This document shows positions 20,896-64,000 of a stretch of DNA of 64,000 nucleotides, piece by piece. Where the stretch lies: NCBI RefSeq assembly GCF_000189635.1, contig NW_002476154.1:124001-188000 (forward strand), in the 5' to 3' direction. Position 1 is the stretch's first letter. Every line of letters starts with the position of its first letter. Below the pieces are notes generated by a model, which worked only from the letters and a program-made list of their open reading frames with translations, searched no databases and was not told the DNA's origin. A program made the translations under genes and the position numbers. This stretch comes from Tetrahymena thermophila SB210 (Eukaryota > Ciliophora > Oligohymenophorea > Hymenostomatida > Tetrahymenidae).

Positions 20896-21136
20896 ATGAC
20901 TTATAATTTCATTTTTTTAAATTATTGATATTTATTTCTCTCAGTAAACAATTGTAGCTATTTTTTAAATTAAAGACTTTCATTAAAAATTAAAAAGAAA
21001 AAAGAAATCAATCAATCAATTAATACACTAATTCATTCATCATTTATATATTAACTAATTTTGTTTATAAAAATGAATTTTTAGATTTAAAAACTTGAAC
21101 TCTTCACAACAGAATCAAGGTTAAGAGTTAAAATTA

Positions 21137-30655: not shown

Positions 30656-32252
30656 TTTATTGGGTTAATATAATTACAATAATGAATATAGTGATAGTCA
30701 AACTAATAAGATTTAGTGATCTCTTCTCAATTAATAGTTAGATTTATTTCCTTTTTTAATAATTTTGAAAAGTTGTTGAAATAAATATACTATTTTAATG
30801 TTGTTTTTTGATACTCCTACTTTTTATTCTGATATCAAACAGATATTCAAAAAAAAATAATAATTAATTAAAATAAGTTTTTTATCACTGTTAAAAAACA
30901 TAAGAAAGGAGTATTAGTTAAATGATATTCAAATGAAATTCTAATTTTTTTAAATAAAGCATATCATACTAAATTTAAATATTAATTAATTATCTATTTA
31001 GCCTTCAACTTTTGACAAAGTTTGAACGAAAAACTTAAAAATTTATCAAAATAATTATTTATGTTTGAGAATGAATACAGAAAATTATTTTGTAATTTTT
31101 TCTCTAGTTAGTATTTGTTCATAAGATATTAAATAATTTTTCCCATTTTTTAACTTAAGCTCAATTAAAACAATTTTAATAAGCAATTATTTAAATAATT
31201 TTTTAAAAAATATATTTTTATAAAATTAAGTAATTTAAGTTATCACTAAAATATAATTAATTTTTAGCTATTTAAATTAATAAAAATAATTTTAAAATAT
31301 TCTTAAGACTTATCTCAAAAATAATTTAAAGGATTCAAATTTTGTTTTTTTATTGAAAAATTATTTTGTTATAAATTTAGTTTCGGATTATTTTTAATAC
31401 AATAAAATAAATAGTTGCTTTTTAATTTAAATTAATATTTTTAACATAATACAAATAATTAATTAAATAGGTTATTTAATTAAAATATTTTTCCTGATCA
31501 CTTTATTTAATTATTTCTTTATCTTCGTAAAATAATTTGCATAAATAAATTAAATATTTTTTATATTTTGATAACTAACTTTGAATTACCAACCTTTAAA
31601 ATCATAAAAAGGACAATGCTTTAACTATTAGTTTATTCTTAAGGTTAGAAATTTTATAATAAATAGTGAAATTAAATATTTATCAGCCAAATTTATTTAA
31701 ATCCAAAATAATAACTTAATTTTAAATTTTGATTAAAATAGCCTTGCTTTTGTGATAAAGTTCTTAAGGTAGAGAGAGAGAATTTAAAATAATAAAAAAA
31801 TATCAATTAATCTGCAATTGAATTTCTACCTTATTTATTAAATGTTTATTTCTTTAAATAGAAAATAAAAATAATTGTAGACTCTAAATTGATCGTAAAT
31901 CATTTTAGATATTCGATTAAATTTTATAATTAATTTATTCATACCGAAAAAATTTAAAAGAATAACTTTTTATCCTCTTCGTGATTTCTTTAATATTTAT
32001 TTATGCACATACATTTAATCAATATAATTTCTCCTATAAATTTTTTTATACGAGTAAAAAAATGGAAAAGCTTAAAGTTTTCCTATGATCTAAGTAAGAT
32101 GAATAATAAATAAATAGAATAAAAAACATTTATTTTTAATAATATTAAAAAAGCATTAATAATCAGAAAATTTAAAGGTTTTGTTCTTTTTTTAAACTAG
32201 TATTGACTATAAAAAATATGAGCTCATCCTCATCAAAGTAATTTAATTAGAT
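30656..32252. other. Divergent intergenic region
   Basis: Spacer upstream of the TmcB-like gene (-) and of the membrane protein gene (+). A/T-rich throughout; no gene, RNA or structured repeat recognised. Confidence 0.5.
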
Positions 32253-32864: not shown

Positions 32865-34947
32865 AAGGAAGGTAAATATATTTTACTCATAATTTTCATT
32901 TTACCTTTTACTATTATTTTCTGTGTTGTTTCTTTATAAATTGTTTTTACTTTATATACCAGATGAAGAATTACCACAACAAAATAACTTTTCCATAATT
33001 TTTTGAAATAAAATATTTTAATAAGTATTAAAATCAATCTGCCTGTCTGTCAGTGAATTTCTTTTTTTATCAAATATTTTTTTGTAAATAATTAAGATTA
33101 AAGAAAAATTATTTATTTGTATAAATGGAATGAAATATCTTTCTTTATCTAGTAAATTATATAAAAGAATTTAATTTAATTTTGTAGATACCTTTAATTT
33201 ACTTTAGGATATTTTAAAACTTTTCATATTTATTTTTTAGAGTAGTGATTTCAAGTAGTATAGATTTTTACAATAAATTTGTATCAAAACATTATAAAAT
33301 TTTCATCAACAATAAAAATATGAGGTAGAAATCCTTAAACTTTAGAGATATCGAAGCTATCATTTGTGTTTATTTTTTACTTAAAATATTAATTCAATAT
33401 TAACCAACCCTCAACTTAACATATTTTGTTAATAATTTCAATAAATAAAATTCAATAAAAGAAATTAATTGTAAATAGTTTTAATTTTATTGATCTAATT
33501 TTTTCTTCAAATCTTTTTTTTCTAATCCTATTATACTCAGTTTGTAATTAATTTAAAAAATATTAATGACTATCTTAAATATGTTTTCTTCCCTCATTTT
33601 TATCTATCTATTTTTTTTAAAGAAAACTTTTCTAAAAATATAAAATTTTATACCATCACTCTATCTCTACTTGACCTTCTTTTTCAAATTGATTAACTTC
33701 CCAAAACAAAACGAATATCCGTTTATTTTTTAAAAATAAAAATGTTATTTTAGTAAACTCATTAAATGTTTTAATTAAATAAATACAAGATATAATTTAG
33801 TTAGGAAAAATTTGAACAAAATTGGAAAAAATATATTAATAAATTATTATTTAAAAGAATATTTTTTAACTATCATAAATAATATTAGCTTTAATAAATA
33901 TAAATTTATTTTAAAAAGTAATAAGTAGTTTTTTTCTCTCAAATATATTAAAATCTTGCTGAAAATTATTCAATTATTAATTGCTAAAAATATTTTCTCT
34001 AAAAATTAGTAAGTAAGTAAGATATTTTCTTTGTTAATTGATTGATTAAAATTAATCGTATACATACAGAAAATTATTTATTTTTTAAATTCATAAATTT
34101 TAAAATTTGATTTTTAACTCTTTTAAATTTAAATATCAATCAATAAAATTTGTTTAAATAAACCACTTACTTTGGTGTAATTCTAAATTTAAATACTTTA
34201 TTTTCTAATTTAGGATTTTAAAATTTTCAAAAAAAAGACTAATTAATAAAACCTATAGATATAAAAAATATCATTAAAGTATCTACTTTTTTTTATCAAA
34301 GCTATAATTTATTTAAAGAAATTGTTTAGGATCAGAAATAATAATTATAAAAGATTTGTCATAATCAAATTAATTAAGATTTATTAAAAGTACTTTAAAA
34401 AAAAAAGTATAAACAAAATAATTTATTGTAACCAATTTTATTTCTAATCAAAAATTTCTATTTAAGAATAGAATTGTTTCATGAAAAAAAATCTATGATT
34501 ACACTTTTTAGGCTATTTAAACATTTATTTTTTAACAAAAAATAAAAAAAGAATTATTAAAGTAAATTAAGAAAAAAGATATTAATTAATGATGGCTTAT
34601 GAAGCTTTTGCTATAAATATTTTTTTTTTCTTGCTCTTGCAATGGATTTCAAACATAATTATTGTGAAGGTTTTTTGAAGGAATAAGGAACAAGAAATAT
34701 CCACATCTACCTATCTGTTTATATATTTTTGATAATACTATTAAAGATTTACTAATAATCAATCTGCTAAGTCAATTGAATAGTAAAAAACTATTAATCA
34801 AGTATCACAAGATATGCTGAAGACTTCTTTAAATATCAGACATTCTCTTATTAAAGATTTATAATTAAATAATAAATCATAAATCTTAAAATTTAGTTAA
34901 ATCAAAAAATACAAAATACATAAATTAATTTGTAGGTATATAGGGAG
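32865..34947. other. Intergenic region, A/T-rich
   Basis: Two kilobases without a supported gene. Only poly-A/T runs and short simple repeats (tgcctgtctgtcag near 33040, agtaagtaag near 34010). The minus frame at 32813-33037 is not convincing. Confidence 0.5.
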
Positions 34948-35919
<972 letters not shown>

Positions 35920-36534: not shown

Positions 36535-37641
36535 ATGGAATAGGAAATTATTAAAGTTCCTGCTATTATATCTGATATTGATGGAGTGCTTATACTAGGC
36601 CCAACTCCTATCTAAGAAGGAACTGAAGTCATTAAAATGATACAAAAACCACTTTCAGAGCTTGCTCCAAGTAGGTTTGCTGACGAAAAAGAAATGAGAT
36701 TGCCATTTGTTTTACTTACTAATGGTGGCGGAATGAGTGAGGATAATTTTGTTTTAAAGATAAATAAAATACACAACTTAACCGATGATGAAGTTAACAA
36801 AGTTCGCAAAGAATAAATAATATTAAACTACACTCCATTGAAGAGTGTTATATAGAATCAATATTAAGATAAAGTTATTTTAGTAGGTGGACATGGTAAA
36901 TCTGAAGATATAGCTGTATATATGGGAGCTAAAAAATACATTACTGTTACTGAATATTTAAATATATATCCTATTATTGCACCTATTAAATATTAAAAGT
37001 AATGCCAAGACACTATCAAAGAAGTTTCTTAGCGCTTAGGAATGTCACCTGAACAATTACTGAAAGACCATCTTTAAATATCAGCTATTTTTATTTTATA
37101 TGATCCTGATAAATGGGAAGAATATATTTAGCTTATTACTGATATCCTTACCACAGATGATGGTTCTATTTCTAAAACTTAATATCTCCCTTAATTTGAG
37201 CAACATATACCATTATATTGTGTGTCAAACGATTTAACTTATTAAGATACCTTCCGCTTACCAAGAATAGTGTTTGGATGTTTTAATATAGCTCTTAAAA
37301 GTGTTTACAAGCTACTTTACAACAGAGAACTTAAAATAAATTAATATGGTAAGCCTTCGCCATTGACCTATTAATACGCTGAAATGCATTGCAAAAATCT
37401 AATATAAGAATATAATAAAAAATCCCCTGGAAAGAAATACGAAATAAGTAACTTTTATATGATTGGAGACAATCCATCATCAGATATCTAAGGAGCTAAT
37501 AATGCTGGGTGGACATCTATTCTAGTTAGAACTGGTGTCTTTAAATTTGGAGAAAATTCTGAATAATTTCCTGCAAAATATGTTTGTTAAAATGTTAAAG
37601 AAGCAATTCAATTAATTTTTGAATTAGAAAATTTAAAATGA
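36535..37641 (+). CDS. HAD-superfamily IIA hydrolase, CECR5/HDHD5-like
   Basis: Intronless, 368 residues. Motif I is SDIDGVL (Asp14 nucleophile, Asp16 acid/base). Motif II is LLTNGGGMSE near residue 63. GGHGKSEDIAVYMGAKKYIT marks the NagD-like class IIA cap region, and motif III/IV is the late YMIGDNPSSDIQGANNAGW (about residue 306). The order, with TNGGG and a long C2 cap containing ILYDPDKWEEYIQL and PRIVFGCFNIALKSVY, is that of the eukaryotic CECR5/HDHD5 group (yeast YKR070W), thought to be mitochondrial phosphatases of unknown substrate. I see no clear mitochondrial presequence here. The four acidic residues needed for phosphotransfer are all present, so it should be active. The start is the first ATG, ten residues before motif I. 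Confidence 0.9.
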
Positions 37642-39362: not shown

Positions 39363-40871
39363 ATGAATCATCTATCCCATTTTCTTAAACAAAGCTATGC
39401 AACTTAGAAGATGTTTAATACACCTGTCTTTATGAGCAGTATTTAGATTCTTCAAAACAAAATGAGAAACTCCACTTGGTTTAACTCTATTTTCTCTCAT
39501 TCATTTTTCAAGAAGCCAGTCGAAAAAGATGTAAAGAGCTTTTCTCAATTACAAATTTAGCAATTAAGCAAGCAAGGTCTTGAACTCATCCGTAGTTCAA
39601 ACTCTTCTAACTTGAACAGCGTCCTTTTAGGTGATATCCCTTCATCAACTCAACTCAGCTTTAATAGCGAAAGCTTGAATAGCATGTAGAACAAGCAGAA
39701 TTTAATAAAGCTAGCGAGTAGAAATAATTCAACAGTAAAGCATTTCCTAAAGCAATAGGTACAATATTTGAATAACAATACAAATAATACAAATGGCAAT
39801 ATATAGTAAAACAGCAGCATCAGTAGTAATAAATAACTCTAACAGCAATTATAGTATAATGTCATTTCGACTAAGGAATTCCATGAACAAAAAAAGAACT
39901 ACACAAAGATTAAAGCTTTTGTGAAAGAATTCGTTCTCCTGTTAAAGGTAGGTACTATAGACACTTATACAGATTCTAAGTGGTTCTTCAACCTTTTAAT
40001 GAAAAAGAAAAAAACTTAAATGACTGGCTATGAAGTACGTTAAAGTATGAGAATTCGCTCTGATTTGTTTAAAATTATTCCTTTCTCGTTTTTCGTTATT
40101 GTTCCTGCTGCTGAATTATTGCTTCCTGTATACTTGCTCCTCTTCCCCAACGCTATGCCCTCTTAATATACATTCGATTACGCCTACGATTAATACATCC
40201 AATCTTTGGAAGATAACTAAGCCTCAGCCCATGAGTAATTAGCATATAAACTAAAAAATCACTTGATGGAAAAGTGCAATGTCAGTGTTGATCAATTCCT
40301 CCATAGCGACACCTACAAGCTAGCTTTCTTTAAAAACTACAAAAATTTCGAATAAGAGAATCTTGATTTTAACAAATTTTCATCTGATGAATTGATCACT
40401 GTTTGCAAATTCCTTGGTATGGAAATGATTACTGGTACTTACATTATTTCAAAAATTGCTAATATTCTCATCAACACTCCAATTTGGTTTGCTAATTTAG
40501 GCTGCAAGCTTTTGAAAAAAGAAAAGAAATTTGGCTATAGTAAATTCTCAATTGATCTTAACTTTGGTCCATTTGAAGTTTTAAAACGTTAACTTCTCCT
40601 TGTATAAATCAAACGCCATCTTCAATTATTAAGACTATAAGATCAAGCATTCTTCAAGATGGGTTTCCATGATATTGTTGGTCACAGAATCACTGATTTT
40701 GCCAGAGAAAGAGGTATTACAACAATTTCATGTTACGAAACATTGAAAGCCGTTATAGCTAATGAGTGGGTAAATGTAAATATAAATCGTAAATTCAATG
40801 ATAATGCAATGATTTGGTATGCTATCATGCAATACGACTTCCTTAGAAACGCTAACAATGATATGAATTGA
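39363..40871 (+). CDS. LETM1: LETM1-like mitochondrial inner-membrane cation exchanger
   Basis: Intronless, 502 residues. LETM1/Mdm38/YOL027 proteins exchange K+ (or Ca2+) for H+ across the mitochondrial inner membrane and interact with ribosomes there. Visible: a Ser/Phe-rich N-terminus free of acids for about 50 residues (targeting sequence), a Gln/Asn-rich variable stretch (about 115-165), the conserved block SMRIRSDLFKIIPFSFFVIV followed by PAAELLLPVYLLLFPNAMPSQ (residues about 227-270; single membrane helix with the family's conserved Pro and Glu), and the C-terminal ribosome-binding-like domain, including DELITVCKFLGME, ADs such as LLRLQDQAF, and ARERGITTISCYETLKAVIANEW. It lacks the long coiled coil and EF-hand that follow in animal LETM1, like other short protist and yeast members. 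Codon use is of the well-expressed kind. Confidence 0.94.
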
Positions 40872-41941: not shown

Positions 41942-44900
41942 TCATTATTTCACCTTTTTGTTACTAGTTTTAAGACCCTTTAATGCTCCATCTTCTTTTT
42001 TATTCATAATAACATCGAATGCTTTAGAAGCTCTCTTTTGATGTCTCTTATTTAAAGCCTTTTGATTAATTAATCATACAAATATTAATAATTGCCAAAA
42101 ATGAAAATGAATAAATAATTACCTTAGGATTCAATTAAATAAATGCATATGGATCAGGTTTACCTTTTCTAACAACATCACCACCAGTTTCACCCTTAGC
42201 CTTGAAAGTATCACCAGACTCTTTAATGTTGTGAACAAGATTGTTTTTATTATCTAATTTATGAATGAAAATAATTTTAATTAATCATTTATTTTACAAT
42301 AAAAATAAAAAGTAATACCTGTTCTTTTCTAAGTTAATTTTCTTGAAGTGATAGTCTTTTCATTATCATTGATGTCTCTTTCTTCTTGAATGATAGAATC
42401 ATATGTAGCATATTTGTCTTCTCTTCTTCTCTTTTTACCAGTCATATCTTCAATAGCCTCACGTACGATAATCTTACCCTTGATATATTCAACTTCCTTT
42501 CTTTCATTTTCTTCATTAAGTCTTTCTTTCAATTTCTTTAAGCCAGTGTTGGGAACAAAGTGGAATTATTGTTGATCCTAATCGAATTTAAGCAACAAGT
42601 TCTTTTCTTCTTTTTGTTTAGCTAAATTTTCAGATTCCATACGTTGCTAAACATCAAAGTCAGTTTCTTTATACTTAACTTATGCAGCTAGCTTCTTCCT
42701 TTCAATTCTTTCACGGATTTTCTTTTTTATTTATTATATTATCAAATTATTTAGCTATCAAATGTTAAAATTTTACCTTATTCTTTTAGTATCTTTCCTC
42801 CTTTAAGATACCTCTAACAATTCTCTTATGGGCTTCTGGTACATAATCTTCAACAACAGTTCTAGTAAACTTCCTAATTAATCTTGAAACAATCTACTTG
42901 ATGAGTGATCTGTGCTTATCTCTAATGACTTATTCAGATTCAAATATATTGTTGAAGATATCAGGTAATTCGGTTTTTAACTCAGCCTTTGAGATAATTC
43001 TCATATATTTCTTTTTTTATATTAAAAAATTTATTATTTTCATACTGGAAAAAATTATTTTTTAAAAATTACCTTCAAGTAAACTAAAACAGCTTTAAAT
43101 ATTTCTTTGTTTTATTCCTTTAACAAAAGCAAAATAATCGAGTTAACTTCTTTAATGAAAGCAGTGTCTACGTTTTTTCCGAATTTCTCAAGGAGATAAG
43201 CAATAGAAACGATACTGTCAGCCTTCATTAAACTGCTTGAAGCTCCCAAACCAGCAGAGATCTTTATAAATTTAAATAATTTGTAAGCAAAATTAATAGA
43301 TAAATGAATGAATAAATTACCATAGATATAAAGTCATTTAACATATTTAAATTTAACATTTTTTGAGCAATCTTCTTAAAGAGTTCTTAGGAAGCTTTTC
43401 TAGAGCGAATGTTAGATTCTCTTAAACCTACAATAAGTTCAGGAAGGAAAGTTTAGATGAATTCACCAATTTAATCTACTTAGGATTCTTCTGAATCAAA
43501 CTTGTTTAGTTACCAAATTTAAGTAATGACTTAAAGTCTGATAGGTCTAGCAGAGCTTTAAGTGGCTTATTTATTTTTGAGAATTTCAGATACTTGTGGA
43601 AGGAAAGTATAATGGACTTTGGAGACAATATTGCTTAAAAATTTGTAAGCCTTCTTTTGTAATACAGTTTAATCGTCAAGGAAGCATTTAATGAATTTCA
43701 TAGCCATGTCCCATCTATCATTCTTGAAATCCATAGATTAAGAAACAGCAAGTATCATGTCAAAAGTTTTGACTGAGTTGTTAAGCTTTACTCTGGTTTT
43801 TTCTTCAGTAGAAGTGGTGACAAGTCTTTTGATGTTGTGAGCAAAAGCAGAATTAAGATATTCTTTAGGAGCTATAAAAGCAGCCTATTAAATAACGGCA
43901 AGAATTTATTTAGAAATAGGTTTGCCAGGAATGAGAAGAGTATGCATGGATTTGATAAGTTTTTATGCACGCACAATAGTATCAGCAGGAACATTTTTAG
44001 CATGACTAATAAACTTAAAGCTGTACTCCAAACCACGTAGAATACTTCCGAAGTGAGGATTAGAATCCTTGAGTTCAGGATCTAAGTTATCTAAAATTAA
44101 ATTAAGAGCAGTGAAACCCTTTTCACCAGAAACGATGTGGAATCTGCTAAAGCACTCCCATAATTATAAGAAAACATTAAACATAACTAATTCTTATGCA
44201 TTCATTTTCTATGAAGTAATATCCATACCATTCTTAATTGTAGAGATGTGAGGAACAATATGTTCAAGGAAATCTTCAATAGATTGGTTCTTGGTGTATT
44301 TCAAAAACATGGGAATCATCCATAAACTACTCTTGTCTTCAAAGTCTTCAGCTAAAGGATTTAAGCCTGCTATTTGAAGAGGGAATCTTTTAACAATCAA
44401 ACCAGCACCAATTTTTGAAATTAATTTTGCCATGCACTTTTCAAAACTTGAAGCGTGTCTATTAACTCTATTTTCGACTAATTCTTTAACTATTCCATCT
44501 ATATCTGTCATGCCTATTTATATTATTTATTCCAAATAATTCTTTAACAACATATTTATTTTTTTTATTATTTAAAATGCTTACAATCTTAATCTATCTT
44601 TTGGAAGAAAACACCAAGGACTCCATGAACTTAGATTTATCTATTATCGAAACGGTTGCTTAACATGTGCTAGAGCATAGAAATAATCTTTTCAAAAGTG
44701 TTATCTGCAGTAGAAGACTCAACTCCGAGATTATCGATTTCAGTAAAGTCAAATTCATTGAGGAAACCACCAGTTTTATGCTTTTTCCAAAGATATTCAC
44801 CAATAACTGCAATAATCAAAGTTTCCATCTACTTTTAACCAAATGTTGCAAGCTTAACATCGACTGAGAGGATAATTTCCTAAAGCACAGAAATAACTGT

Positions 44901-47591: not shown

Positions 47592-50500
47592 ATGAGTTAA
47601 TCTAAAGTTAGCTAACTTATAAAATCTTTTCAAGCTTTCTTAAAAGGCATGCTGTAATCTAAAGAGATATCCTTAAATTTTACATAGAGGATAGAAATTA
47701 TGCTATTTTATGTTAACAGATATCCACTAGATTGTGATAAAATGGAAATATTTTCTAACAATTCAAATTCAAATGAATTTTTAGAAAGCTTCATAAAAGA
47801 AAACTCACTGGATGTTTTAATTTTTAGTGTCAAAGAAATACTTTCATAAAAAACAGCTAATTAAAAAGTTTAACCTACGCAAACAGACATATAGCCTCCT
47901 AAAATAGAAATCTAATTATCATAAAATGAGTTGTTGATTAAAGATTATATAAAAAATATGATCTCATCCAAAGACTTGAAGTAAAATCAAAATTAAACTC
48001 AATTAGAATAGAACATGGATTTTGGTGGTTACTAAAATTAAATATAATCTCCTTTAATCATAGAAAATCAAACTTTATAAAATATTTTGCAAGAAGAATT
48101 CACTGACGAAATAGATAGTCTAAATAATAGATTTAATGCTAGTAGTTAAGGTTCTTAAAAAATTTTGAATGAGCAAACAAAGCTGAATAATAATTACTTA
48201 GCATCATCGGAAAGTTTATAAAAAAATTACTTAAAAAGTGCAAGTACCAGTCAAAATATACTCAAATCAAAGAGTCCTTCATTTACTTAATTAGATAATG
48301 TTTAAAATGATACAAAAAGTAAATAAAACGAAATAGTAGCTTAAAATTATTCTATGAACAAATCAAGCTCTTAAGCTGTTTTAGCCGATGAAATAGACAT
48401 AATCTAAAGTGAACAAAATTAAAATATCTATTAAGAATAAACAACGAACTAATATTAGCAAAATAAAAACCTAACAAGTAATGATTTCGTATCGAAAAGT
48501 AAGAATTCTCTTTGTTTAATTTTTAATATTAACAAATTCTTCTACTTTTTAGATTTTATCATATAAGTCAAGAATAATTTTAATTTTTTTTGCTTTTAAT
48601 ATTAAAAATAGATTTAAATATTTTTTTTTTTGTTGAGTTAAGTATTTATTAATTTTACTAATTTAAAACAATATTAGACTTAAATTAAATTTAAGAAAAT
48701 TAAAATCCTAATTAATTTGAAAGTTTGCTGACTAATAATAAAACAAATTTTGGTGATATGAATATAGCAAATGGTAAGTAGAACGAAAACATTTAATACA
48801 ATTATTTGTAATATAATTAATCTCTTTAACAGTACTAATTTGAAAATCAAGAAGAAATCAAAAAGAGTCTTAATCATTTGCTGTAAGATGTGAAATCAAA
48901 TCTACAAATAATGAAGAACCACACTATACAATATAATAACTTGATACAAGAATATCAAGATTAAAATAGCTAGCAAAAAGTATACACACTTAAACAAGGT
49001 TTAGCAGGAAAATACTAATACAATTTTAAGTCTCCCATATAAATAGAAAACAAAGATATGGATCTTAATTAATAGATGAAAAAGTCTTTAAAAAATGTAA
49101 TCCTTTATACTAGGAGGGATAGCATTAAGGCATCTTTTTATTCTATTGAGAGCGATCTGTAAAAAAAATTGTAATAGGCTAAGCACAATTTGTAACATAA
49201 TAATGAAAAAAAATCTTACATAAACGCAGATGAATCTAAATCTGATCAAAAATTTACTCGAGGATAGTAAATAGAATCTCTGTCATAGAGATACATGTTA
49301 AATAGATAGAAGAGCAATAATTCAACCTAAAATACAAACTAAAATAAATCTAATTAATTAGGTAATTCTTAGCCATAGTAAATAGATTAATAAATAGTTT
49401 AAGGGATACATAATTAGCCATATATGATATATAATTAACTTTAATAGAATTAAAACTCCTAGCCAAACTAAGAATATAATAAAAATATAGCTAATTCTCC
49501 CTAACAATAAAATATTTTAAATGAAATTAATTAATAATTTAATAATAAAGAATTACCTAAAACACATCAAATTTAAAGATAATATGATGATAATGAAATA
49601 AATTATGCAAGAAAAAACGAGGCTAATATGCAAATCAGCTAATAAGCATAAATTACTACAAATAGCTTTCAATAACAATAGAATGAGCTAGATTATAGTT
49701 AAGGATAATCACCAAAAATACCAGAAGTACAATAACAGCTAAAAACTTTCTTGTAATCATAGATTTAAAATCAAGATTTATAAAAAAATTAATTGAATTA
49801 TTAATATTTTTAAGTTACATAATAACAACTTTAGCCTTCAATATATCAATAATAATAAGTTTAAAATTAAGAACAACAGAAAAACGGTATAAATTATTAT
49901 GATACTTAGTAGTTGATTGCACCATAAATAATATAATCTCCTGTAGTTTATTAAGAAATATAAACTAAAATTCCAGAATAGTTAAAAAATGAATAAATTT
50001 TTTAGGAAGTTTAATAGCTGTAAATGCCTTAAATATAACATCAAAATATAAATTACCAATTTTAATAGTTTCAAGATCAACAATATAAAAATGAATTGAA
50101 TAATTATTAAGCACCATAATCTCAACCACCTTAATAACTATAACAACCAATTATTTATTAATAATAGGTTACAAATGAAGAAAAAGAAAAAAATTAATAA
50201 TTTTATGAATTGTCTTAGAATTAAGAGTTGATACTCTAACAATAATCTCCATTTTAGGTTGAAAAATAACAAAATTTATTGTAATAAATATAGATTTACC
50301 CATTAAATTAGCAACAAAACCAATCACCACCAATAAATAACTAAAGAAGATTTTAAACTGAAATTAATAGAAATCCATTCAGAAACAAAAATTTACTTGA
50401 ATATAAACAAAATTCTTTTATAGAAAATATTTCTGATAGCAATTAAAACTATCTAAATAAAATTCCAATAGAATTTGCCATACAGTAAAAAAATATTATT

Positions 50501-50791
50501 GACTATGAAAAGACAAATCAATAGAATGATCAGCATATCATTTTATAAAATATGTTGAAAAAATACGATTAAAATTTAACTTCTTCACAAAAAAATTTAA
50601 GAAATAGCAATTCTCCAAGTAAACAGCTCCAGAATATATACTCACTTGAAATTGTGATGTAGTAAACTGCTAACAAATATAATAACCCAAATGGTGTTGA
50701 AATTTAATAATAAAACTAATAATATAACAACTAAAATGAATAATTTTCAGAAAAAAATAAACTTTATAGTGAAAATCAATAAATTTATTGA
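47592..50791 (+). CDS. Gln/Asn-rich low-complexity protein, unknown function
   Basis: Two exons (47592-48498 and 48678-50791, intron GTAAG..TTAG) give 1006 residues. Only about the first 100 residues look folded (MSQSKVSQLIKSFQAFLKGM; IEIMLFYVNRYPLDCDKMEI; FLESFIKENSLDVLIFSVKE), a short helical domain I cannot name. Residues about 300-480 contain coiled-coil-like stretches (NQEEIKKSLNHLLQDVKSNL) and a patch, LKNVILYTRRDSIKASFYSI. From about 480 to the end it is dominated by Gln, Asn, Tyr and Ser, a prion-like composition. Most Gln codons are TAA/TAG, mixed with CAA, so the runs are not simple DNA repeats and have been kept by selection or drift at the amino-acid level. Possible roles are a condensate or RNA-granule scaffold, but no RNA-binding domain is seen. 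It directly precedes the receptor array on the same strand. Confidence 0.72.
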
Positions 50792-51833: not shown

Positions 51834-54800
51834 ATGAAAATTATTGCAATTTTAGTATTTGAAATAGTGTTAATATTTGCCATAGCTATTTCTAGCTTAT
51901 AAATAGCTCTCTAATATACAAACAAGTATATGAACGAATATGGGCAAAACATCTTTTAAGATGAAATTGAATATAATAGCAATATCTAATCTATCATCTC
52001 TTTTAGATTAGCTAGAGAAATATTTAAGCTGCCAACAAGTCTAAATATGATAAATTCATTCAATGAAAAGATTAATTAAGGTAATGTCAAGTATGAGAAT
52101 AAGTATAAGCCAAGTATTTTAAATATTATTCAAACATACCGTTCTTAAATAAATCCTTTGTACTATCCGCTATTAGCTAAAAACTAAATGCTTTTAAGTA
52201 GTTGGTAATATTCATAATCAAAATATTAATCACTTCTTAACTTTAACCATTTAAAATGTGTTTATTTAAAAGATTTTATTTATTTCGATATTAAATTTTA
52301 TAGAGGTATTCCATATATCATTGAAATATTTTGTAAATTAATTCATTTATTTTAAAACATTTATTTTAGCTAAATAAAACATACAACAAACTCAATATAA
52401 TTAATCAACTTATTTTATATTAATTAGGTATCAATAAAATGCAACTCAAATTAATTTGCTAGACTTTTAATCATAACAAGCCTTATATAATTTTACAAAA
52501 TTAATCCCTTTATTTAATGTTATTTAATAGTAAAGCTAACAAATCTCTTCTGGTGTTTTAACTCTTCCTTATATTTAAGTATAAATTTTTAACTCTTAAA
52601 CAGGAGCAGCTTTAACTAGTTATGTTAACAGTTCTCTATAAATTTAACTAGATACTCCTAATTGTTATAAAGGTTTATTTAACTATACTCCAACCTGTAG
52701 GTTTTTTTATTTAAATACTATAAATTAAACTTCTGTATTTATGAATCCTCCTTAAATATCAGCTGCAGCTACTCCTTCATTTTTATCATAATACGTATGC
52801 TAAAAAGCTGTGTATTACAATCAATAAAAATAAAATATTGATAATAATCGTGTTTTATGCATTTTATTAAAGCTTTCTAATATTTATAATTACTTTCAAA
52901 ACGCTATCCAAAGTTCTAAACAATATTATGTGATAGACCCTCGAACTCTCTTAATATATTATAACTCAAAGAAGGAATACAACTATTCTAGTATAAAATA
53001 AGCCGATAATTTTTATAAAATAGAACTTTAATATTTAGAAGATCAAAATCAATCACAATAAATTCTTAAATTAATCTAAGATAACTATAATACTTGGGTT
53101 TTTTCTCAACAAAATGATAGTTATGTAAATATTTTGCAGATGCTAGATCTAAGTAAAAAAGCTATTGTTATAGATTATAAAAGGAACGGAACAACATACA
53201 AAGCTATCTTTAATCCTATTATTTTATATGATTAAATTCCTAAATTTACTACAATATACACTAAGCAGTAAGGCCTATTGCTTGAATATGCTTACCTTTA
53301 AATTAATATTATATCTGATGAAGATCTAAAAACTTAAACAAACAAATTACTAAATTTCTTCGCTAATTTATTTATTGCAGTTTAAATATCTCTTCTTGCG
53401 TTGAGCATTATAATTTTAATTGTCACAATAATTTTTGCTATTTAAATATAAGCTTAAATTGATAAACCTATAATTCGAATGACTTAGACTTTGGAAAAAA
53501 TTAACTAATTAAAGGAGCTTGTTGATATTTCACAACTTATTAAAAAATATGAAGAAAAATCAAAATTTATATTTTTATCTAAAGAAACTTATCTGCTTTA
53601 TTAAAGCTTTTTGGATTTATTTGAAATGATTCAATACACTTCTGAAAGCTTTTTTGTAGAAAACGAAGGTAAAAATCTGGTTAGCTTGAGTAAAAAGGTA
53701 GATTTCTTTACAAAATTTAAGAATTATAATGCAGCAGGAGTAACTTATAATAACATTGGAAACATATTGCTTAATTAATAACATTACTTTTAGGCGTTAG
53801 AGCATTTCTCAATGTCAATTATGTATGCAAAATAAGAAATTTCTACATTTTTAAAATCTAATCCTGACTCATCCTATTAAAAATTGCTTTAAGACTATTC
53901 GTATGCCGAATAGATAAATCCAAAATCTGAAATATTTTCGTAACGTAAAACAAACTCTTAGAATTTTTAAAAAATTTCAACTACAAAAAGTTAATTCATG
54001 AAATCAAGCCAATTAGTTGAAGAAAAAAGACCAACAAACTAAAAAATAAAAGAATAAGGCTTAAATTTTTCGAACTAGAAACAATAAAGCTAGTTATTTT
54101 ATTAGTAAAAATCATATGATTAATTTATAAAATAAATTGAAGAAAAACTATAAGTTCAAGAATTAATTTTAAGTCTGTTTTATAGAAAGCAAAATTATGT
54201 AATTACTTTGATGGCCTTTTAAGAAAATTTAGATTCATAATAAAAAAAAAGTAAATAAAGCAAAGGATTTTACTTTTGGAAAGAAATAAAAAGCTTACTT
54301 AAAGATTAAATAAAATTAATAAATATAGATCCTGAATTTAAACATATTAATATATTTTTGAATTGCCTTTTGTCTAAGTGTTATTACAATCAATTTTAGT
54401 ATTTTAAAGCCAAATAAAGACTTACAGAGGCATAAAATATGATTCTAAATTTTAGAAACTCATACTAAGTAAAAACATAAGAACACCTTTCATTAAATTT
54501 TAAAAGCAACTAAGTTTCCAAAGAAAATTTTTTTGATGATTCGCAAAGAAATTAAATTAAATAAAATAATTTTTATGATCTAAACTAATTATCGCCAGAT
54601 TTATCAAATAAGTTTGGAATTAACTTAAGCAAAAAATCTTAAAATAGATAAAGTTGTTTTAAAAACTTTAATCCAGATTTAATTGATTAAATAAATATTT
54701 CATAAACAAACTTAACTAGCAAATAAAATTAAAATTAAGAATTGTATGATATTTTTAATAGTTTTGAAACTTCATAAAGAATGTTTTTAAATAAAAAGTA

Positions 54801-56517
54801 AAGCATCAAAAGTATTTATCTTTAGAACTTTTTAGTTAACAGGAATACAAATAAAAATTAGACTTTAGATAACCAACAATTTAGTGATAAATTATAAAAA
54901 TTATATGATAAAGCTTAAGAAGAAAATTCTAAAAATTATAAAATAAATATTAAAACACTTCATCAAATGCTTAGTCAATATTTTTAGTATAGTTTATCAG
55001 AATATTTTATATTTACTAAAAAATATAAAAAAGCTGCTGAAATTTTAACAGATTTATATGAAAATAGCTAAACCATGACATCCAATTTACCTTTCAGAAT
55101 AGTTTTTAAGCTAAAGCAAATTTTTGATGTTTAAAATATTGAAGACTTTATTCTATACGATGAGTATTCTAGGTTTAATAAAAGTTTATCTTTGCAAATA
55201 GCTATTTGCTTGGAAAAAAAAAGCAAATAAGATTTTCCATATGAAAGAAATAATAATTCTTAAAATTAGAATTCAAATTCAAATTATAACTTAATTAATA
55301 AAATAAAAGATCTTTCTAATAACTAAAATTTGTTTTTAAAATAATTATGTGATGTAGTACTTTATAAAAATACTGATAAAATAACTTTATTTACTGTTGA
55401 TGAAGATGAAAAATGTATTGTTTAGAACATAAAATTGATTAGTGCAAAGCTATTTAGATAATTTTAAGATAATGTATTTTCTTAGTTAAATATTCAAAAA
55501 GAAAACATTTTTAAAAGCTAAATCAACGATAGTAAATTTGATGCACATCTAAATAGTGAAATTCTTTCTTTTAATGAAAAATAAATTAGTGTATCTCAGC
55601 ATTTTAATGAACTAAAAATTGAATAAGATTTATTTTCTGACAAAAAAAGGCTTTAAATTAATTCAAGTAATAAAAAGTATTTCATTTCTGACTTAAGTTT
55701 AGTAGCTAAAGACTAAAATAATTATCAGAAAAATAATTTTCAAGAAAACTCTTATAGCTAAACAATTATTTAAAATAATTCTTAAAATTAGAATGTGATA
55801 TAAAATAGTTCTTGTTATTCATAGTTTTAATAAATAAACTAGCTCAATTAAATACAAAAATAGTTTAACATTTCTCTTTCTTTATAATATAACTAAGAAT
55901 AATTTAAACAAAATTATTAGTAAAAACAAAATCTAGAATAAAATAAAAACAAAAAATAGAATTGTTTGATTGAATAATTTATAAATTTTAATAACTAGGT
56001 TCAAAAATATTTTATAAAATAATCTTAACGATAAATAATAAATTAAGCAGAGCTTCAAAACTTTTACTTTTACGATTTTATTAGAAAGGCTTTGGATTAG
56101 ATGATTTCCTTTCTGTATCCTTATAAAGTCTCTCAATAGAATGTCAACTTAATTAATAATTAGACCAAATAAAACTTTGAAGTGTGTAAATAATTTATGA
56201 GCAAATAACTCGATGGACTTGAGTAAGAAAAATCTTTAAAATTTTTAATTTATCAAACATAGTAAATAAATTTTCTATAAGAAGAATTATTTTTGGAATT
56301 ATGTAGTCTTTTAGTAGAATTTCGTATCTAAATTATCATTTTTTTAACTGAAAAAGGTGATAATTCTTTAGAAACGAGTAAAGATTTCTCTTTTACTTTT
56401 AAGAATAAATAAATATTAAAAATATTTAAAACTGATGAAGAAATCATTTAGTATTTAACTTTTTAAAGAGATAGCTTCTCAAAATTTACATATTTTTCTT
56501 ATATTCAATACTATTGA
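51834..56517 (+). CDS. Cache-like receptor with TPR and vWA-like C-terminus, copy A
   Basis: Exons 51834-52204 and 52428-56517 give 1486 residues. Order: N-terminal signal anchor (MKIIAILVFEIVLIFAIAIS); about 400 extracellular residues with Cache-like marks (NCYKGLFNYTPTCRFFYLN, matching the YxPxxRxWY turn of Cache proteins, and FMNPPQISAAATPSFLSQY); YYVIDPRTLLIYYNSKKEYN; second membrane helix near 432-458 (IAVQISLLALSIIILIVTII); HAMP-like IDKPIIRMTQTLEKINQL; TPR-like repeats at about 560 (GVTYNNIGNILLNQQHYFQA), about 768 (CLLSKCYYNQFQYFKAKQRL) and about 985 (YFIFTKKYKKAAEILTDLYE), separated by Gln/Asn/Ser linkers; and a C-terminal block (about 1335-1486) ending in IQIIIFLTEKGDNS, reminiscent of the last strand of a vWA fold. 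By family logic a chemoreceptor passing ligand binding to a cytoplasmic scaffold. Ligand and output unknown. No kinase, cyclase or methyl-accepting domain is present. Confidence 0.82.
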
Positions 56518-56900
56518 GAAATTTCATGTTTTATAAAATATAAATTCAAGTATTGTATATAGAGTAAAATGCCATTTCTATTTAAAAAATAAGCTAAATT
56601 TAATGTTTTGATTTAATTATAAGACAATAATATTTAATTTTTAATAAACGAGTAAAATAATTTTTATATTTTTATAATTAATTACACATACATAATATTA
56701 TTTCAATCACAAATTTATAGATAATAAATTTTTGATAATAATTAAAATTCAAAAATAAGAAAGAATTTAATAAAAAACTAATAATAATTGTAATTTATTA
56801 TTAGAATAAAAGTTATAATAACAATAATTAATATATTTGGTGAAATAAACATTTCAAAGTAGAAGTTTTAGTAATAAGTAATATCATACAAAAATATCAA
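56518..56900. other. Short spacer between receptor copies A and B
   Basis: 383 bases of A/T-rich sequence. Must hold the 3' end of copy A and the promoter of copy B. No shared motif with the spacer before copy A that I can prove by eye. Confidence 0.5.
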
Positions 56901-59900
56901 ATGAAAATAATAGCAATTTTAGTTTTTGAAATAGTATTGATATTCGCTATTTCAATCACTAGCTTATAAATAGCTCTTCAATACACTAAAAAATATTTGA
57001 ATGATTATGGTGATATCATCTTTTAATAATAAATAGAATTGAGTAGTCACATATAATGTTTGACATCATTTAGATTAAGTTAAGAAATATTAAAATTACC
57101 ATTAAACCTAAATATTATTAATTCTTTTCATGAAAAAGTCATTCAAGGTCATGTTAAATCTAATAGTCATTACAAGCCAAGTATTTTAAATATTATTGAA
57201 ACATATTATTCAAAAATAAGTTCTGATCTCAATTAATTAGTAGCTAAAAACTAAATGTCTATTAATAGCTGGTATATAATTAATTAATAACACACTTTTT
57301 ATATACAAACATAAAAGTTAAAAATATTTTATTAAATGGAATTTTATTTGCAAAGTTAATAATATTTTTAATTTTATATAAATGTTTTATCTAATTTATT
57401 CATATTTACTTTTTACAAAATGCTTATTTATTTTATATTATAGGTTTTAATAGAATGCTACTTAAATCAGTTAATTAGATATATAAGGAAAGGAGATTTT
57501 ATATAATTTAACACTTTTGATTCCATTAATGAATGCAATTAAATATTCATCAAACTAAAATATTTCAAAAATTTCAACTCTTCCATTTAGATTTACAGCA
57601 GTATTTGATTCAAGAGAAGGAATTATATTAGCTACTTATGCTAACAGTTCTCTGGATATTAAGTTAGATAGTTCTAATTGCTATAAAGGATTATTTGATT
57701 ATGATCCTAGATGCAGATTTTATTTTATTAACAGCTTAAATGAAACTTCAATATTTATGAATCCACCTTAAATATCAGCTTCTGCTACACCTCATTATAT
57801 ATCCTAGTATGTTTGTTAAAGTTTAATGTATTAAAATTAATTTACTTAGAAAATAGATAATCGATATGTAACATGTTTTGAATTAAACTTATCAAATATT
57901 AATAATTATTTTTAGAATATCATACAAAGTTCTAAGTAGTACTACGTAATTGATCCTAGAACGCTTTTAGTATTTTTTAATTCAAAGAAACAATATAACT
58001 TCACAAATATAACTTAAGCTGATAATTTATACAACATTGAACTTTAATACTTGGGAGATCAAAATTAAACCCAATAGATTCTCAAATGTATCAAAGATAA
58101 TTATAATACTTGGGTTTTTTCTTAAGAGAATGACAGATATATGAATCTATCTTAAATGCTTGAATTGAGTAGAAAAATTATCATATTAGATTATATTAGG
58201 AATGGAACAGCTTACAAAGCTATTTTTAACCCTATTATTTAATATGATTAAATTCCTAAATTTATGATAAAATATACAAAATAGTAAAGTCTTTTGCTTG
58301 AATATGCTTATCTATAGATAAATATTATTTCTGATTAAGATCTCAAAATATAGACTAATAAATTACTGAATTTATTTTAAAATTAGTATATTATTACATA
58401 AATAGTTCTTATAGGGATAAGTTTTATTATTTTGTTTATTACAATATATTATGCTATTCGGATACAAAAGAGTATTAATAAACCTATAGCCCGCATGACA
58501 AAATTATTGGAAAAAATAAATTAATTGAAAGAATTAGTCGAAATTTCACAGATTATTAAAAAATATTAATAAAGAGATTGGTTTTTACTTTTACCCTTAG
58601 AAATATATTGTCTATATACAAACTTTTTGGATTTGCTTGAGATGATTTAGTACACTTCAGAAAATTATTTTGAAGGAAATGAAGGTGAAATTTTAATAAA
58701 ATTAAGCAAAAAAGTGGATTTTTTTAAAAAATTTAAGAATTATTATGCTCTTGGACTAACTTATAATAATATTGGTAATATACTTCTAAAATAAGAGTAA
58801 TATTTCTAGGCATTAGAGAATTTTTAGTTAGCAATAATGTATGCAAAATACGAGATAACTTTTTATTATTAATAAAATCCAAATTCGTTGTATTAAAATT
58901 TTCTTTAAACACACTCTTTTGCTTTTGCTTAAGATGGGAATATAAGTTAAAATCAAGAAAATTAAAGTTATTATTTAAAGTAATTAAAAAAAAATAATAC
59001 TCCTAAGAGTCAATTTGTAAAAAAAGGTTTTTAAAACTAATAAAATAAACAAAAAGTTGAAATACCAAATAATTAAACAAACTCATCACAATAAATGAAT
59101 TAAACGATATCAAATAAAAGTTTATAGAACAAAAAAAATAACAGCTAACTAATAAAATAAAAATAAGATAAATAAAAAGTGTAAGAACTGATACTAAATC
59201 TATTTCACAGATAGCAGAATTAAATCATTACTTTGATATCTTTTTAAGAACATTAAGATAAAAAGCAAAATTAGTAAAAATAATTCTAATTTTGGAAAGA
59301 GATAAAAAGCTTAATTAAAAATTAAATAAACTTAATTAATAATGACCAGGAGTTTTCATATATAAAAATGTTTATGAATTGTTAGCTTTCTAAATGCTAT
59401 TATAAACAATATCAATACTTCAAAGCAAAGTAAAAGTTTGAAATTGCTTAACATGTATTAAGTAATTAGGTAAAATAAAAATAATTGAAAATATTAGAAA
59501 TTGCTTCTCAGCATTTTAAAAGTAATTCTATTCCAAAATAATATCCTTTAGATGAAATTGAGCAAGATAAACCATGTATCAATTAATTAAATGAAAAAAA
59601 TTTGCATTCGTCAGAATCATATCATAAGTTTATTTAGAATGTTCAGTTGACTTAATAAAAAACAGGCAATTAAACAAAATATTTTAATTTAGATTTATCA
59701 GGTTCTTTAAATAATTAAAGTGCAAATAATCATGAATTATTAAATTATAAGTCAGAATTGTATGATTAAAATAGTTTAGAAGCTTCTTAAAAGATGCTGT
59801 TGAGTAAAAAAATATAAAATTAAGAAAGCTAACTGAGCTTTTTCTAATAAACAAAAATTAAAAGACATTAATTAATAAATCCTTAAAATGAATAGACTCA

Positions 59901-61533
59901 ATTATTCAATAGTAGTAATAAATTTGATCTTTAAAACAATACTTAACAGAATAATAATAATAATAATGATAAAAGCGAAACAAATATGAGAATTCTTTAT
60001 CAAAACTTCAATTCGTATCTTTAGTATAGTCTATCAGAATATTTTATTTACAAAAAAAAATACAGAAAAGCTGCTGAAATTCTTACGGAATTATTTGAGA
60101 ATAGTTAAACAATTACTTCTAACATTCCTTTCAGAATAGTTTTTAACCTCAAATAAATATTTGATGCTTTTAAAATTGAAGATACTATACTGTATGAAGA
60201 ATATTCTAGGTTTAATAAAAATTTATCTATATAAATTGTCATTTGCATCCAAATCAATATCAATTAAGACTTTTACTAGAGCAATAAGCAAAATATATTA
60301 TAAAATTAATCTAAAAAAAGCCAAAGTTATTTTAATTAGAGAAAAGAATTTAAAGATAATTAAGTATTATTATTAAAAAAACTAATTTCCAAAGTACTTA
60401 AAAAAAGCTCTGATAAAATAAGTTTATTTTCTTTAGACTTATAGGAATAGACAATTATATAAAATACAAAATTGGTTAATCCTCTTTTATTTAGATAAAC
60501 TTAAAATGATATATTTGATAAAATAAATACTCTAAATTCAAACAGTAGTTTATTAAAAAGCCACGAAAGCTAATTATGTAAACAAGATAAATAGAACAAT
60601 TGTGAGACATAGTCTTTTAATTATTAATAGCAATCAAATAATGTCTTCTAGCATTTTAATTAAATGATATAAGAAGAAGAAGATCACTTGAATAAAAGTA
60701 AGTAGCAAATAAGCAAAGAATATAGAAAAGTGTTCATTTCAGATTTAAATTAACAAAATAAATCTATTTAAAATTTTATCAACAATCAAACAACTTGCAA
60801 TTAAATTAATTTGAATTTAAAAGGGTAAATGAATTATTCAAATTTTCAGCCAATTAGATAAACTCAAGACTAAAAATAAAATTGTGTTTAGAATAGCGAA
60901 AAAAGCAGTGTTGATGACTAACTAAATGATTATTATTTTTAATTTATTAAAAACCAGAGTATTGAAAAAAAAAATTAAGACAGACTTTCGGGATGTTTTC
61001 ATTAGTAATTAAAAAGTTTATTTTTATAGATCTATGAATATTTAGGTAAAATATAATAAAAAACATCTATTACCAAACTTGAATAATCAAATTTTTTTTT
61101 TTTTGATTTTATTGCAAAAGCTTTGGATTAGCTTATTTCTTATAAATATATATACACAATTGCAGAAAATAACTACAATTAAATACATAATCCATCTAAA
61201 TCAAATTTCTAAGTCTATAAATAGTATATGAGCGAATAGCTAGGTGGTCTTGAATAGGAAAAACCATTAAAATTCATAATTTATTAAACAGATTAAATAA
61301 ATTTTATAAAAGACTCTTTATTTTTGAACATGTGTAATGTTTTAGTGGAGTTAAATATTTAAATTATCATATTTCAAGCTTAATTACATGATACTTTTAG
61401 TTAGTCTTATAATCACAAAAATAAAGAAGTAATTAAAATTTTTAAAAGTTATAATGAAATTGTTCAGTATTTAATCTTCAAAAGAAATAGCTTCTCAAAA
61501 TTCACACAGTTCTCATATGTATAATACTATTGA
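56901..61533 (+). CDS. Cache-like receptor with TPR and vWA-like C-terminus, copy B
   Basis: Paralogue of copy A: exons 56901-57271 and 57444-61533, 1486 residues, the intron at the same codon (inside a Trp codon, phase 2). Signal anchor MKIIAILVFEIVLIFAISIT is nearly identical to copy A. The extracellular marks recur (NCYKGLFDYDPRCRFYF; FMNPPQISASATP; YYVIDPRTLLVFFNSKKQYN), here with the fuller Cache-type YDPRCRFYF. Second membrane helix ...QIVLIGISFIILFITIYYA, HAMP-like NKPIARMTKLLEKINQL, TPR-like GLTYNNIGNILLKQEQYFQA, CQLSKCYYKQYQYFKAKQ and YFIYKKKYRKAAEILTELF. The linkers between repeats have diverged almost completely, while repeats and membrane segments are conserved. The vWA-like end (LNIQIIIFQAQLHDT) is more degenerate than in copy A. 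Reads without any TGA to 61531-61533, so apparently intact. The standard-code frame at 60161-60376 is a shadow. Confidence 0.82.
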
Positions 61534-63683
61534 AGAAAACAAAAATTAATTATAGATTTAATAATAATTTGTTTATTTATAAAATTTATTTTAATTTAAA
61601 ATTATTTATGAGTTGAGAGTATGCATCGATTATTAAAATTTAACTATAAAAATATTATATTTTTAGTCTTATTTTTTTAGAATACAGAAAATAAAAAATA
61701 AAAAAAATTCTGCAATAATGTTTTAAAAATATAAATATTTAACAATAATTATGATGAAATCAATTAATATTTATATTCTAAAACAATAATTATTTTTTAT
61801 ATTATTCTTATATTTAATGCTATTGAATATATTTTAAAAACCATTAAAAAACTCTATTTTAATTTTTTTAAAATCTAAGATTTCGTGAGAATAAATCAAA
61901 AAGTCTTTTTTTAAATCATGTTAATACCCATTTTATTTGAAAATTTTCTTAATTATTTTATAAATAAAAATTATAATTGTCCTTAAGCCAAATAATATTA
62001 TGCAGATCAAGTAGTTTAATTGTTTTTCTAATTGTTATTTAATTAAGATGTCTTTTTAAATCAAATAATTTTTAAAGAAGAATTTTCTTTTGAATTGTGA
62101 TTAGTTAAAATTCATTATTAGAATTCTATTTAAATACTTTCTAAATTGTTATATTATTTATTTATTTTTAAATTATAAGAAACTTAAAAATAATATTTGA
62201 TGAGAGTATTTCATATATAAGTTTGTTGAAATATATATTTAAAATTTTTATATTTTGAAAATTTTCAATGGAAGAAAAATAAATTCATTTTTATGAAATA
62301 TAAAATATACCTTTAACATAAAAATCAAATAAATAATTACTCTAACTCCTGATTATTAATGAACCAACCACTTATAATAAGGATCAAAACAATTTTAGAA
62401 CCAAATTATTAATTATCCAAAAGGAAGTGGAGGTGGGGAATTCCCTTAATTAATCAGGAGCTATAGTATATAATCTATAAAACTTTCAATTATTAATCAT
62501 AAAGGGATTCTAATTAATAATTCTTTAAAAATATTGAGTTAATTTAGCCAATCAAAATTTAATATATTATTTTGAAGAAAAAAAAAAAATAAATAATAAA
62601 TGATTGGTATATTTTTATTTATTAAAAATAAACCCAAATAAAATTGATTGAATTACTTAATAAATAAATAATTTAGTAAATCTTATAGAATAAAAAAATT
62701 ATTTATTCAAAATTCAAATAAGGGGAAGATAAATTCGCTGTTTAACTAAACTTGATGAATACAGTTTTAGAGACTGGTAATAGTATATAATTTTTGAATT
62801 GATAAAATATTAAAGAGTTAAAATCAAAAAAATTTGAAATACGATGAATTTAATAATATTTTTGATTACTTTTTTTATGTACATTTATTTTTATGTTAAT
62901 ATTTCAATTGCTCAATTTATGAAAAATAATATGTCTAAAATTATCAATAAATTCTAAAAATGAGAAATTTATCTAAAAACAAACACGTTTAAAAATACAA
63001 AGTAAATAAAAAATATTTTGTTATCAATTAATGTTTTATTGAAAAATTTAGAGTTAAAGTGTTATATACTTGAGCAAAGCAATAAAAATTAATAACAAAT
63101 AAATTTAATTTTATAATTCTTGAAAATATAAGCAGTAGATGGCTAGAATTAAAACTAAAATTTTCTTTATTTTTAAGCCTACTTAGTTCTAAATAAAATT
63201 AATAAACATTTTTGCACTTATTTGGTTCTATAAAATATAAATAATTATTTGTCTTAAAATACTTTTCAATATAAATCAATCAAGCAACCATTTTTAAATA
63301 GAGTTGCTTTAGTTATTACAAAAAAAGTGAAATTTTCATTTTCATTTGTCATTTTTATCTCAAGAAATAAATGGGGGATGTAGTTCTAGCTGTAGTTAGT
63401 TGTAGTTGTTAATAAAAAAAGGAATTAAATAATTTCAAAGAAAGAATAAATTATGTCTTTTAGTTTGAGTGTTCTTTTCTGATAATATAGACAACATGTG
63501 ATTTTTATAAGTATAATTATAATCGGGTAAAATTTAAGACTCATAAAAGTATAATCCAGTAATAAAAGAGTTAGTTACTAGAGATAATAGAAAAAAGTTA
63601 ATCTTTTGATCACAAATAAAAAATAAATAATAAATAAATTAGAAGTAAGTAATAAATCTAAAAAAGCTTCTTAGTAAATAGAA
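61534..63683. other. Spacer between receptor copies B and C
   Basis: 2.1 kb, much longer than the spacer between A and B. Mostly A/T, with one GC-richer insert (62343-62463, separate entry) and ctagctgtagttagttgtagttg near 63386. No readable receptor fragment was found. Confidence 0.45.
62343..62463. repeat. 121-base segment bounded by short inverted repeats
   Basis: Left edge taactcctgattattaat and right edge attaatcaggagcta (tagctcctgattaat in reverse complement) match over about 14 bases with one mismatch. Inside is an unusually G-rich patch (62422-62444, gaagtggaggtggggaattccc) for this genome. It looks like a small non-autonomous element or a structured transcript, but is a single copy in this window. 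Confidence 0.5.
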
Positions 63684-64000
63684 ATGAAATTGATAGTGAT
63701 TTCAGTAATTCCAGTTGTTTTGATATTTTTCGTAGCAATATCTAGTTTACAAATAGCTCTCTCATATACAAAGCAATATATCAACGAATATGGTTAGAAT
63801 ATATTTTAAAACTAAATAAAATTTAGCAGTAGCACTGAGTCTATTATTTCTTTTAGATTAAGCAGAGAAATCTATAAGATACCAGTCTATATTAGTATGT
63901 TAAATTCGTTGCATGAAAAAATGACCTAAGGTGAAGTTATTATGAGCCATTTATATAGACCAAGCACTGTGAATTAAATGCTGTTATATTAATAAAAATT
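63684..64000 (+). CDS. Cache-like receptor, copy C (start only, runs off window)
   Basis: First 105 codons of a third tandem paralogue. MKLIVISVIPVVLIFFVAIS is the signal anchor, followed by SLQIALSYTKQYINEYGQNI, TESIISFRLSREIYKIP and HLYRPSTVN, all aligned with the first exon of copies A and B (SLQIALQYTNKYMNEYGQNI; IISFRLAREIFKLP; YKPSILN). In A and B the first exon is 371 bases, so the intron of C would lie just beyond the window. No stop or frameshift in the visible part. Divergence from A and B is clearly greater than between A and B, so it is the older branch or the faster evolving one. Confidence 0.8.

Follow-up and report, generated by a model that had tools for sequence, protein, structure and literature searches.

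Bacterial chemoreceptors built on a dCache_1 sensor end in a chemotaxis signalling domain, and the animal protein CACHD1 carries Cache and vWA domains in one chain. In both CACHD1 and alpha2-delta, the vWA and Cache domains are extracellular and neither HAMP nor TPR is known to be present. Upadhyay et al. 2016 (PMC4822843) excluded eukaryotic sequences from model building and regard archaeal and eukaryotic Cache domains as apparently transferred. The histidine kinase section of a further study (PMC5847659) places archaeal sCache and dCache domains almost exclusively in Methanomicrobia. For Tetrahymena, two reports on chemosensing receptor knockouts cover one G-protein-coupled receptor and one chemorepellent receptor (PMC3226668, PMC5497023). 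In the survey by Xiong et al. 2019 (PMC6564038), TPR is one of the seven leading domain classes in genes specific to single Tetrahymena species, and the main text of that paper nowhere uses the word 'cache'. Here we describe a tandem array of genes that begins at position 51834 of a 64,000-nucleotide window (the whole stretch analysed), which corresponds to 124001-188000 of Tetrahymena thermophila SB210 contig NW_002476154.1 (C335) in a genome of 101 Mb and 445 contigs. With a probability of about 0.75, we interpret the encoded proteins as dCache-HAMP membrane receptors that use a TPR/vWA scaffold as output and were expanded as a chemosensory repertoire. No description of the dCache-HAMP-TPR-vWA layout, in ciliates or in Asgard archaea, was found in the literature searched, most subscription papers being outside its scope.

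The G+C content of the window was 18-30% in 2-kb steps, and 39 open reading frames of at least 250 residues were present with the ciliate code (table 6), against 0 with the standard code. Under the ciliate code, copies A and B are each complete, with two exons and 1486 residues. Copies A, B and C all lie on the plus strand, with the following features.

51834..52204, plus strand: copy A exon 1; signal-anchor transmembrane helix 1 (TM1, residues 3-21) and N-terminal helix of the sensor
52205..52427, plus strand: copy A intron; GT-AG, Trp codon split
52428..56517, plus strand: copy A exon 2; remaining sensor, second transmembrane helix (TM2), HAMP-like region, TPR, low-complexity linkers, vWA-like end and stop
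52429..53346, plus strand: copy A putative dCache sensor, exon-2 part; by profile against Asgard dCache
53386..53442, plus strand: copy A TM2; by hydropathy
53458..53643, plus strand: copy A HAMP-like region; by hhalign against Asgard HAMP-TPR
53578..53760, plus strand: copy A HAMP-to-TPR junction, 61 residues; length equal in ciliate and Asgard proteins
53746..53814, plus strand: copy A TPR, the sole Pfam-recognised repeat; E 0.0023, below cut-off
55183..55419, plus strand: copy A vWA-like domain, first half; beta1-alpha1-beta2 by alignment, no DxSxS
56050..56514, plus strand: copy A vWA-like domain, second half; dN/dS of the block 0.23 (A/B) and 0.29 (A/C)
56901..57271, plus strand: copy B exon 1
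57272..57443, plus strand: copy B intron; splits a Trp codon
57444..61533, plus strand: copy B exon 2
57700..57726, plus strand: copy B dCache motif YDPRCRFYF
58390..58446, plus strand: copy B TM2; by hydropathy
58474..58776, plus strand: copy B HAMP-like region and junction to TPR
58759..58836, plus strand: copy B TPR; Pfam TPR_1 E 0.0059, below cut-off
60220..60456, plus strand: copy B vWA-like domain, first half; no DxSxS
61075..61530, plus strand: copy B vWA-like domain, second half; helices and strands alternate in a low-confidence model (pLDDT 48.5)
63684..64000, plus strand: copy C exon 1; ATG at 63684, exon cut by the window end, gene continuing in the contig (L011)

The gene models bore out the head-to-tail, same-strand paralogues reported by an initial annotation of this DNA, and the motifs that it quoted are real. 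Copy B contains YDPRCRFYF and NPPQISASATP, the copy A counterparts are YTPTCRFFY and NPPQISAAATP, and the two copies are 65% identical across sensor to TPR. Each has two strong hydrophobic helices (residues 3-21 and 444-462 in A, 3-21 and 440-458 in B) and a third, weaker hydropathy peak (1.8-1.9) in its C-terminal part. The intron form in which exon 1 ends in a split Trp codon was found by script in 14 of 16 paralogues, with no scoring instance in L024 and L028. On the evidence of these sequences, the product is a single chain consisting of TM1, a predicted dCache sensor, TM2 and a HAMP-like coupler at a fixed distance from the TPR, with long low-complexity linkers and probably a vWA fold.

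A profile of the TM2-HAMP-TPR part (A3), with two peptide patterns, was scanned against 84,980 prokaryote species genomes. A pattern was matched by 95 stretches, and the 2 that were confirmed both lie in metagenome-assembled genomes of Heimdallarchaeia (Asgard), one Heimdallarchaeota (L041) and one Kariarchaeota (L042). The L041 gene (1464-4106) is complete and encodes 881 residues in the order dCache_1, HAMP, TPR, VWA, with Pfam scores above cut-off for dCache_1 (64.4 bits, cut-off 45), HAMP (31.2, cut-off 25) and VWA (54.9, cut-off 23.8), and with several TPRs. The L042 gene is truncated by the contig edge, and TPR and VWA are seen. With at most 4 candidates scored per genome, matches at E<=1e-20 were obtained in 68 of 227 genomes of the phylum of L041. 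A single match spans sensor (query <=50) to vWA (>=790) in 54 of these 68; the match is partial in the other 14, owing to contig ends or an unmatched sensor. Among 30 Asgard proteins, Pfam at E 0.001 identified TPR_12 in 30, VWA_2 in 30, VWA in 26, dCache_1 in 29 and HAMP in 6, and DxSxS, the metal site (MIDAS) of the vWA domain, is invariant. These proteins contradict two earlier statements: the receptor family is not specific to ciliates, and the outputs of prokaryotic Cache receptors are not limited to kinase, cyclase and chemotaxis domains.

Profile comparison indicated that the ciliate TM1-to-TPR part is homologous to this Asgard family with canonical dCache, HAMP, TPR and vWA domains. 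From TM1 to TPR the two profiles are colinear for 502 columns (prob 99.2, E 1.5e-19; 14 of 16 ciliate and 29 of 30 Asgard proteins), and a second comparison on overlapping data (A1 vs A8, 16 vs 30 sequences) gave 402 columns, prob 98.8 and E 1.4e-16. The alignment of copy A with the Asgard N-terminus starts at Met1. By parts, HAMP-TPR matched Asgard HAMP-TPR with prob 98.7 and E 3.5e-16 (hhalign), and the sensor with TM1 matched with prob 90 and E 1.9e-6. Pairs of unlike parts stayed at prob <=1.3, except for ciliate HAMP-TPR vs Asgard TPR, which overlap (prob 96.8). For each of four pairs, including sensor, vWA core and HAMP-TPR, none of 60 column shuffles attained the score of the real alignment. 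A single Asgard protein also matched HAMP-TPR directly in the Tetrahymena genome, in copy A (53419-53769, E 2.8e-4) and in copy B (58510-58782, E 0.001). The junction that links the second HAMP helix with the TPR measures 61 residues in 16/16 ciliate and 29/29 Asgard proteins, with a best identity of 33% and a median of 16% over 464 ciliate-Asgard pairs; overall identity is about 15%. This fixed junction, together with the colinear homology, places the ciliate proteins in the Asgard-type Cache-HAMP-TPR-vWA family.

The proposed Cache sensor between two transmembrane helices thus held up, on hydropathy and on the Asgard profile match. The region between the helices is assigned to dCache_1 by its colinear match to partners that are recognised by PF02743 in 29 of 30 cases at E 0.001. 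The coupler after TM2, annotated as a HAMP-like linker, is homologous to Pfam-positive HAMP, a model that only 6 of the 30 Asgard proteins match at that threshold. TPR-like repeats were likewise supported, being recognisable family-wide and homologous to Pfam-positive Asgard TPRs. At E<=1, TPR_2 was recognised in 15 of 16 members, the strongest match having E 4.7e-7, and the window copies scored under the Pfam cut-off (18.4 against 27 bits in A, 16.8 against 27.8 bits in B). Pfam on single members recovered TPR only, apart from chance-like matches; the matches of the 16 members included none to a kinase, cyclase or chemotaxis domain, in agreement with the enzyme-free output first proposed. The 16 ciliate sensors have four invariant cysteines in common, as would suit an extracellular domain. 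The dCache_1AA amino-acid sensor motif consists of R-x-W-Y and a later Asp. R-x-W-Y of this type occurs in 4 of 16 members (L014-L017), and the Asp was not seen, by eye, at the presumed equivalent place.

Expansion by local duplication was also upheld, and the array proved longer than the three copies first counted. Searches with sensor and C-terminal parts identified five same-strand copies on C335, continuing beyond the window. A divergent member, L025, used as query gave 114 matches in the Tetrahymena genome, which were reduced to 83 loci on 24 contigs; this number is a lower bound, as the HAMP-TPR marker misses 1 of the 5 copies on C335. A sensor match lies upstream of the marker in 52 of the 83 loci, with none at that threshold in 31. 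On one contig (C308:446342-768355), 39 family loci, all on the minus strand, lie within about 322 kb. Two further places emerged from the searches. At C114, the Asgard protein that matched copies A and B is matched by its HAMP-TPR part (E 2.5e-7) followed by its vWA part (E 6.3e-10), and a PF00092 match over cut-off, minus the first 23 positions, is found in the same place. At C40, a family HAMP-TPR match lies near a VWA match just under cut-off.

Selection was assessed by the ratio of nonsynonymous to synonymous substitution (dN/dS) in six pairs. The ratio was 0.15-0.36 in the sensor, 0.08-0.18 in TM2-HAMP-TPR, 0.16-0.48 in the first and 0.09-0.36 in the second vWA half, 0.16-0.63 in the middle TPR-like part and 0.41-1.68 in the linker, with dS near or past saturation for A/B and A/C. 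Folded blocks are therefore constrained and linkers near-neutral in these comparisons, and values of 0.08-0.36 in the sensor, HAMP-TPR and C-terminal blocks indicate constrained genes, not chance open reading frames.

These results make the family good candidates for surface chemoreceptors. Judging from domain class and expansion, the proteins would sense chemicals, with the sensor outside the cell and a small molecule as ligand. TM2 and HAMP would relay the ligand-driven movement to the TPR block, whereupon the TPR/vWA part may bind or release a cytoplasmic partner; partner binding is proposed because the searches showed no enzyme domain. The dozens of copies in tandem, whose sensors are constrained yet diverging, would constitute a chemosensory repertoire in which each copy has its own ligand range.

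Several results weigh against this reading. No Pfam Cache, HAMP or VWA model matched any of the 16 family members at E<=1, and searches of the Tetrahymena genome with PF02743 and PF00092 did not land on family genes. Structure models were weak (pLDDT 36 for the sensor Cache test, 48.5 for the C-terminus) and returned no significant fold match. The sensor alone gave modest probabilities against Asgard, 60 for the exon-2 part and 31 with TM1 removed on both sides. N-glycosylation sequons numbered 9-11 per 400 sensor residues and 13-20 per 1026 cytoplasmic residues; as they are not confined to the sensor, they carry little information on topology. For the C-terminus, the unedited profile matched Asgard vWA with prob 0.6 (halves alone 2.9 and 0.5), prob 29-34 was reached only after a low-complexity insert was cut out by hand, and the divergent subfamily alone gave prob 4. 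DxSxS was found at predicted beta1 in 0 of 16 ciliate members. The C-terminus could be another Rossmann-like or phosphoribosyltransferase-like fold, making the output a different binding module. The miss by PF00092 and the unedited profile speak for this, as do the first Foldseek rows on the weak model, which were phosphoribosyltransferases (best E 0.075). We nevertheless consider it unlikely, since the edited core profile reached E 5.8e-4 with 0 of 60 shuffles (0 of 60 also for three further vWA sets), the divergent subfamily, at prob 4 only, aligned over 126 columns, its segments following the expected order and YTD standing opposite LTD, and CMG2 vWA chains appeared among the 50 Foldseek rows, not significantly. 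The vWA-like end of the initial annotation thus stands as probable, not proven, and its metal site appears to have been lost.

Other explanations concern role and origin. The same proteins might serve cell-cell or self/non-self recognition (kin, mating, predator), their diversity being directed at surfaces, not dissolved chemicals. Recognition molecules, too, typically form large tandem families whose outer domains have diverged, and the sensor cysteines are conserved; we find this role doubtful, as those dCache domains for which ligands are known bind small molecules and the sensors are under purifying selection (0.15-0.36 in six pairs), with no diversifying selection at whole-domain resolution, at which single sites could escape. 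Less probable still is that the Asgard likeness is convergent, Cache-HAMP and TPR modules having been joined separately in each lineage. These are promiscuous modules, overall identity is low, and some Asgard matches lack the sensor (among them G113, G132 and G140; query 376-880, frames of 578-585 residues), so that parts are shuffled there too. Against this, the 61-residue junction is ungapped in both groups and the order of parts is equal. In plasmids, 62 of 72,556 records matched, none covered 80% of the Asgard protein at one place, and the two plasmid proteins scanned were TPR arrays, one also with a DUF294_C match. That the array is a decaying relic, in which recent duplication maintains what are mostly pseudogenes, is hardly credible. 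In its favor are an in-frame TGA within the matched stretch of some other copies and the frame change of the fifth C335 copy, E, between two open reading frames (L013:984-4067 and 3821-5560), which may be a further intron or decay. A and B, however, have full-length open frames with matching introns, and dN/dS is well below 1 in folded blocks, approaching 1 only in linkers. The chemoreceptor reading is accordingly preferred. Tentatively, and with distinctly less confidence, it can be extended to an undescribed receptor class that ciliates share with Asgard archaea, either retained since the archaeal ancestor of eukaryotes or taken up from Asgard archaea. In this view the vWA of the ciliate form lost its metal site, turning into a simple scaffold, and the class grew to at least 83 genes as a main chemosensory repertoire.

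Variation was also observed around the Asgard genes. In five genomes (G113, G132, G140, G151 and G139) matches start at or just before HAMP (query 374-427; frames of 472-585 residues), and these proteins seem to be without the dCache sensor part. A second dCache gene follows on the same strand in 18 of 30 Asgard loci, its open frame starting 4-14 bases after the first ends. Examples are L041:4110-5345 and L042:1374-2792; the latter encodes dCache and HAMP with no output domain seen, and lies outside the script count of 18 because its first gene is cut. A hidden Markov model of the second gene matched Tetrahymena loci L029-L032 (best E 8e-14 for L032, 1.5e-11 for L029), and that of the first gene matched L032 and L029 less well (4.7e-7 and 2.3e-6). 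Ciliate counterparts may exist for both halves of the Asgard gene pair.

The neighbors of the array between 6812 and 50791 were ordinary by Pfam (10 open reading frames scanned). The frames at 25477-26553 (minus), 29213-30679 (minus) and 48512-50791 had no Pfam match, and the others were as follows.

6812-8254: WD40 protein
14738-16147: zinc alcohol dehydrogenase
21095-22909: TPR protein
34930-35919: alpha/beta hydrolase
36535-37641: HAD hydrolase
39363-40871: LETM1-like protein
43225-44586, minus strand: RRP12-like protein

In comparison with known systems, animal alpha2-delta has Cache and vWA in one protein (PMC4822843), a combination that the family probably shares. With bacterial dCache_1 chemoreceptors (PctC, 5ltv) it shares a YDPRxRxWY-type motif in the distal sensor half; the match is not significant (E 1.3), and no family claim is made from it. 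A TPR/vWA output without an enzyme would widen the known outputs of Cache receptors. Within Tetrahymena, the dCache-HAMP genes at C9 and C17 (L029-L032) resemble the family, with dCache_1 scores of 31-38 bits in scanned frames (cut-off 45) and a weak HAMP in L032, but differ in having no TPR or vWA match in the scanned stretches and a Q/N-rich tail. The family supplies at least 83 candidate chemosensing loci for Tetrahymena, and the sequences that were read show a clear sensor domain. The closest likeness is to the Asgard L041-type protein. The latter differs in its canonical Pfam domains, several TPRs and invariant DxSxS, in its length (881 vs 1486 residues, without the long Q/N-rich linkers) and in the second dCache gene that follows it in 18 of 30 loci. 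Both share the order of parts, the 502-column alignment from TM1 to TPR and the fixed HAMP-TPR junction, and this common layout makes the history of the receptor across eukaryotes directly testable.

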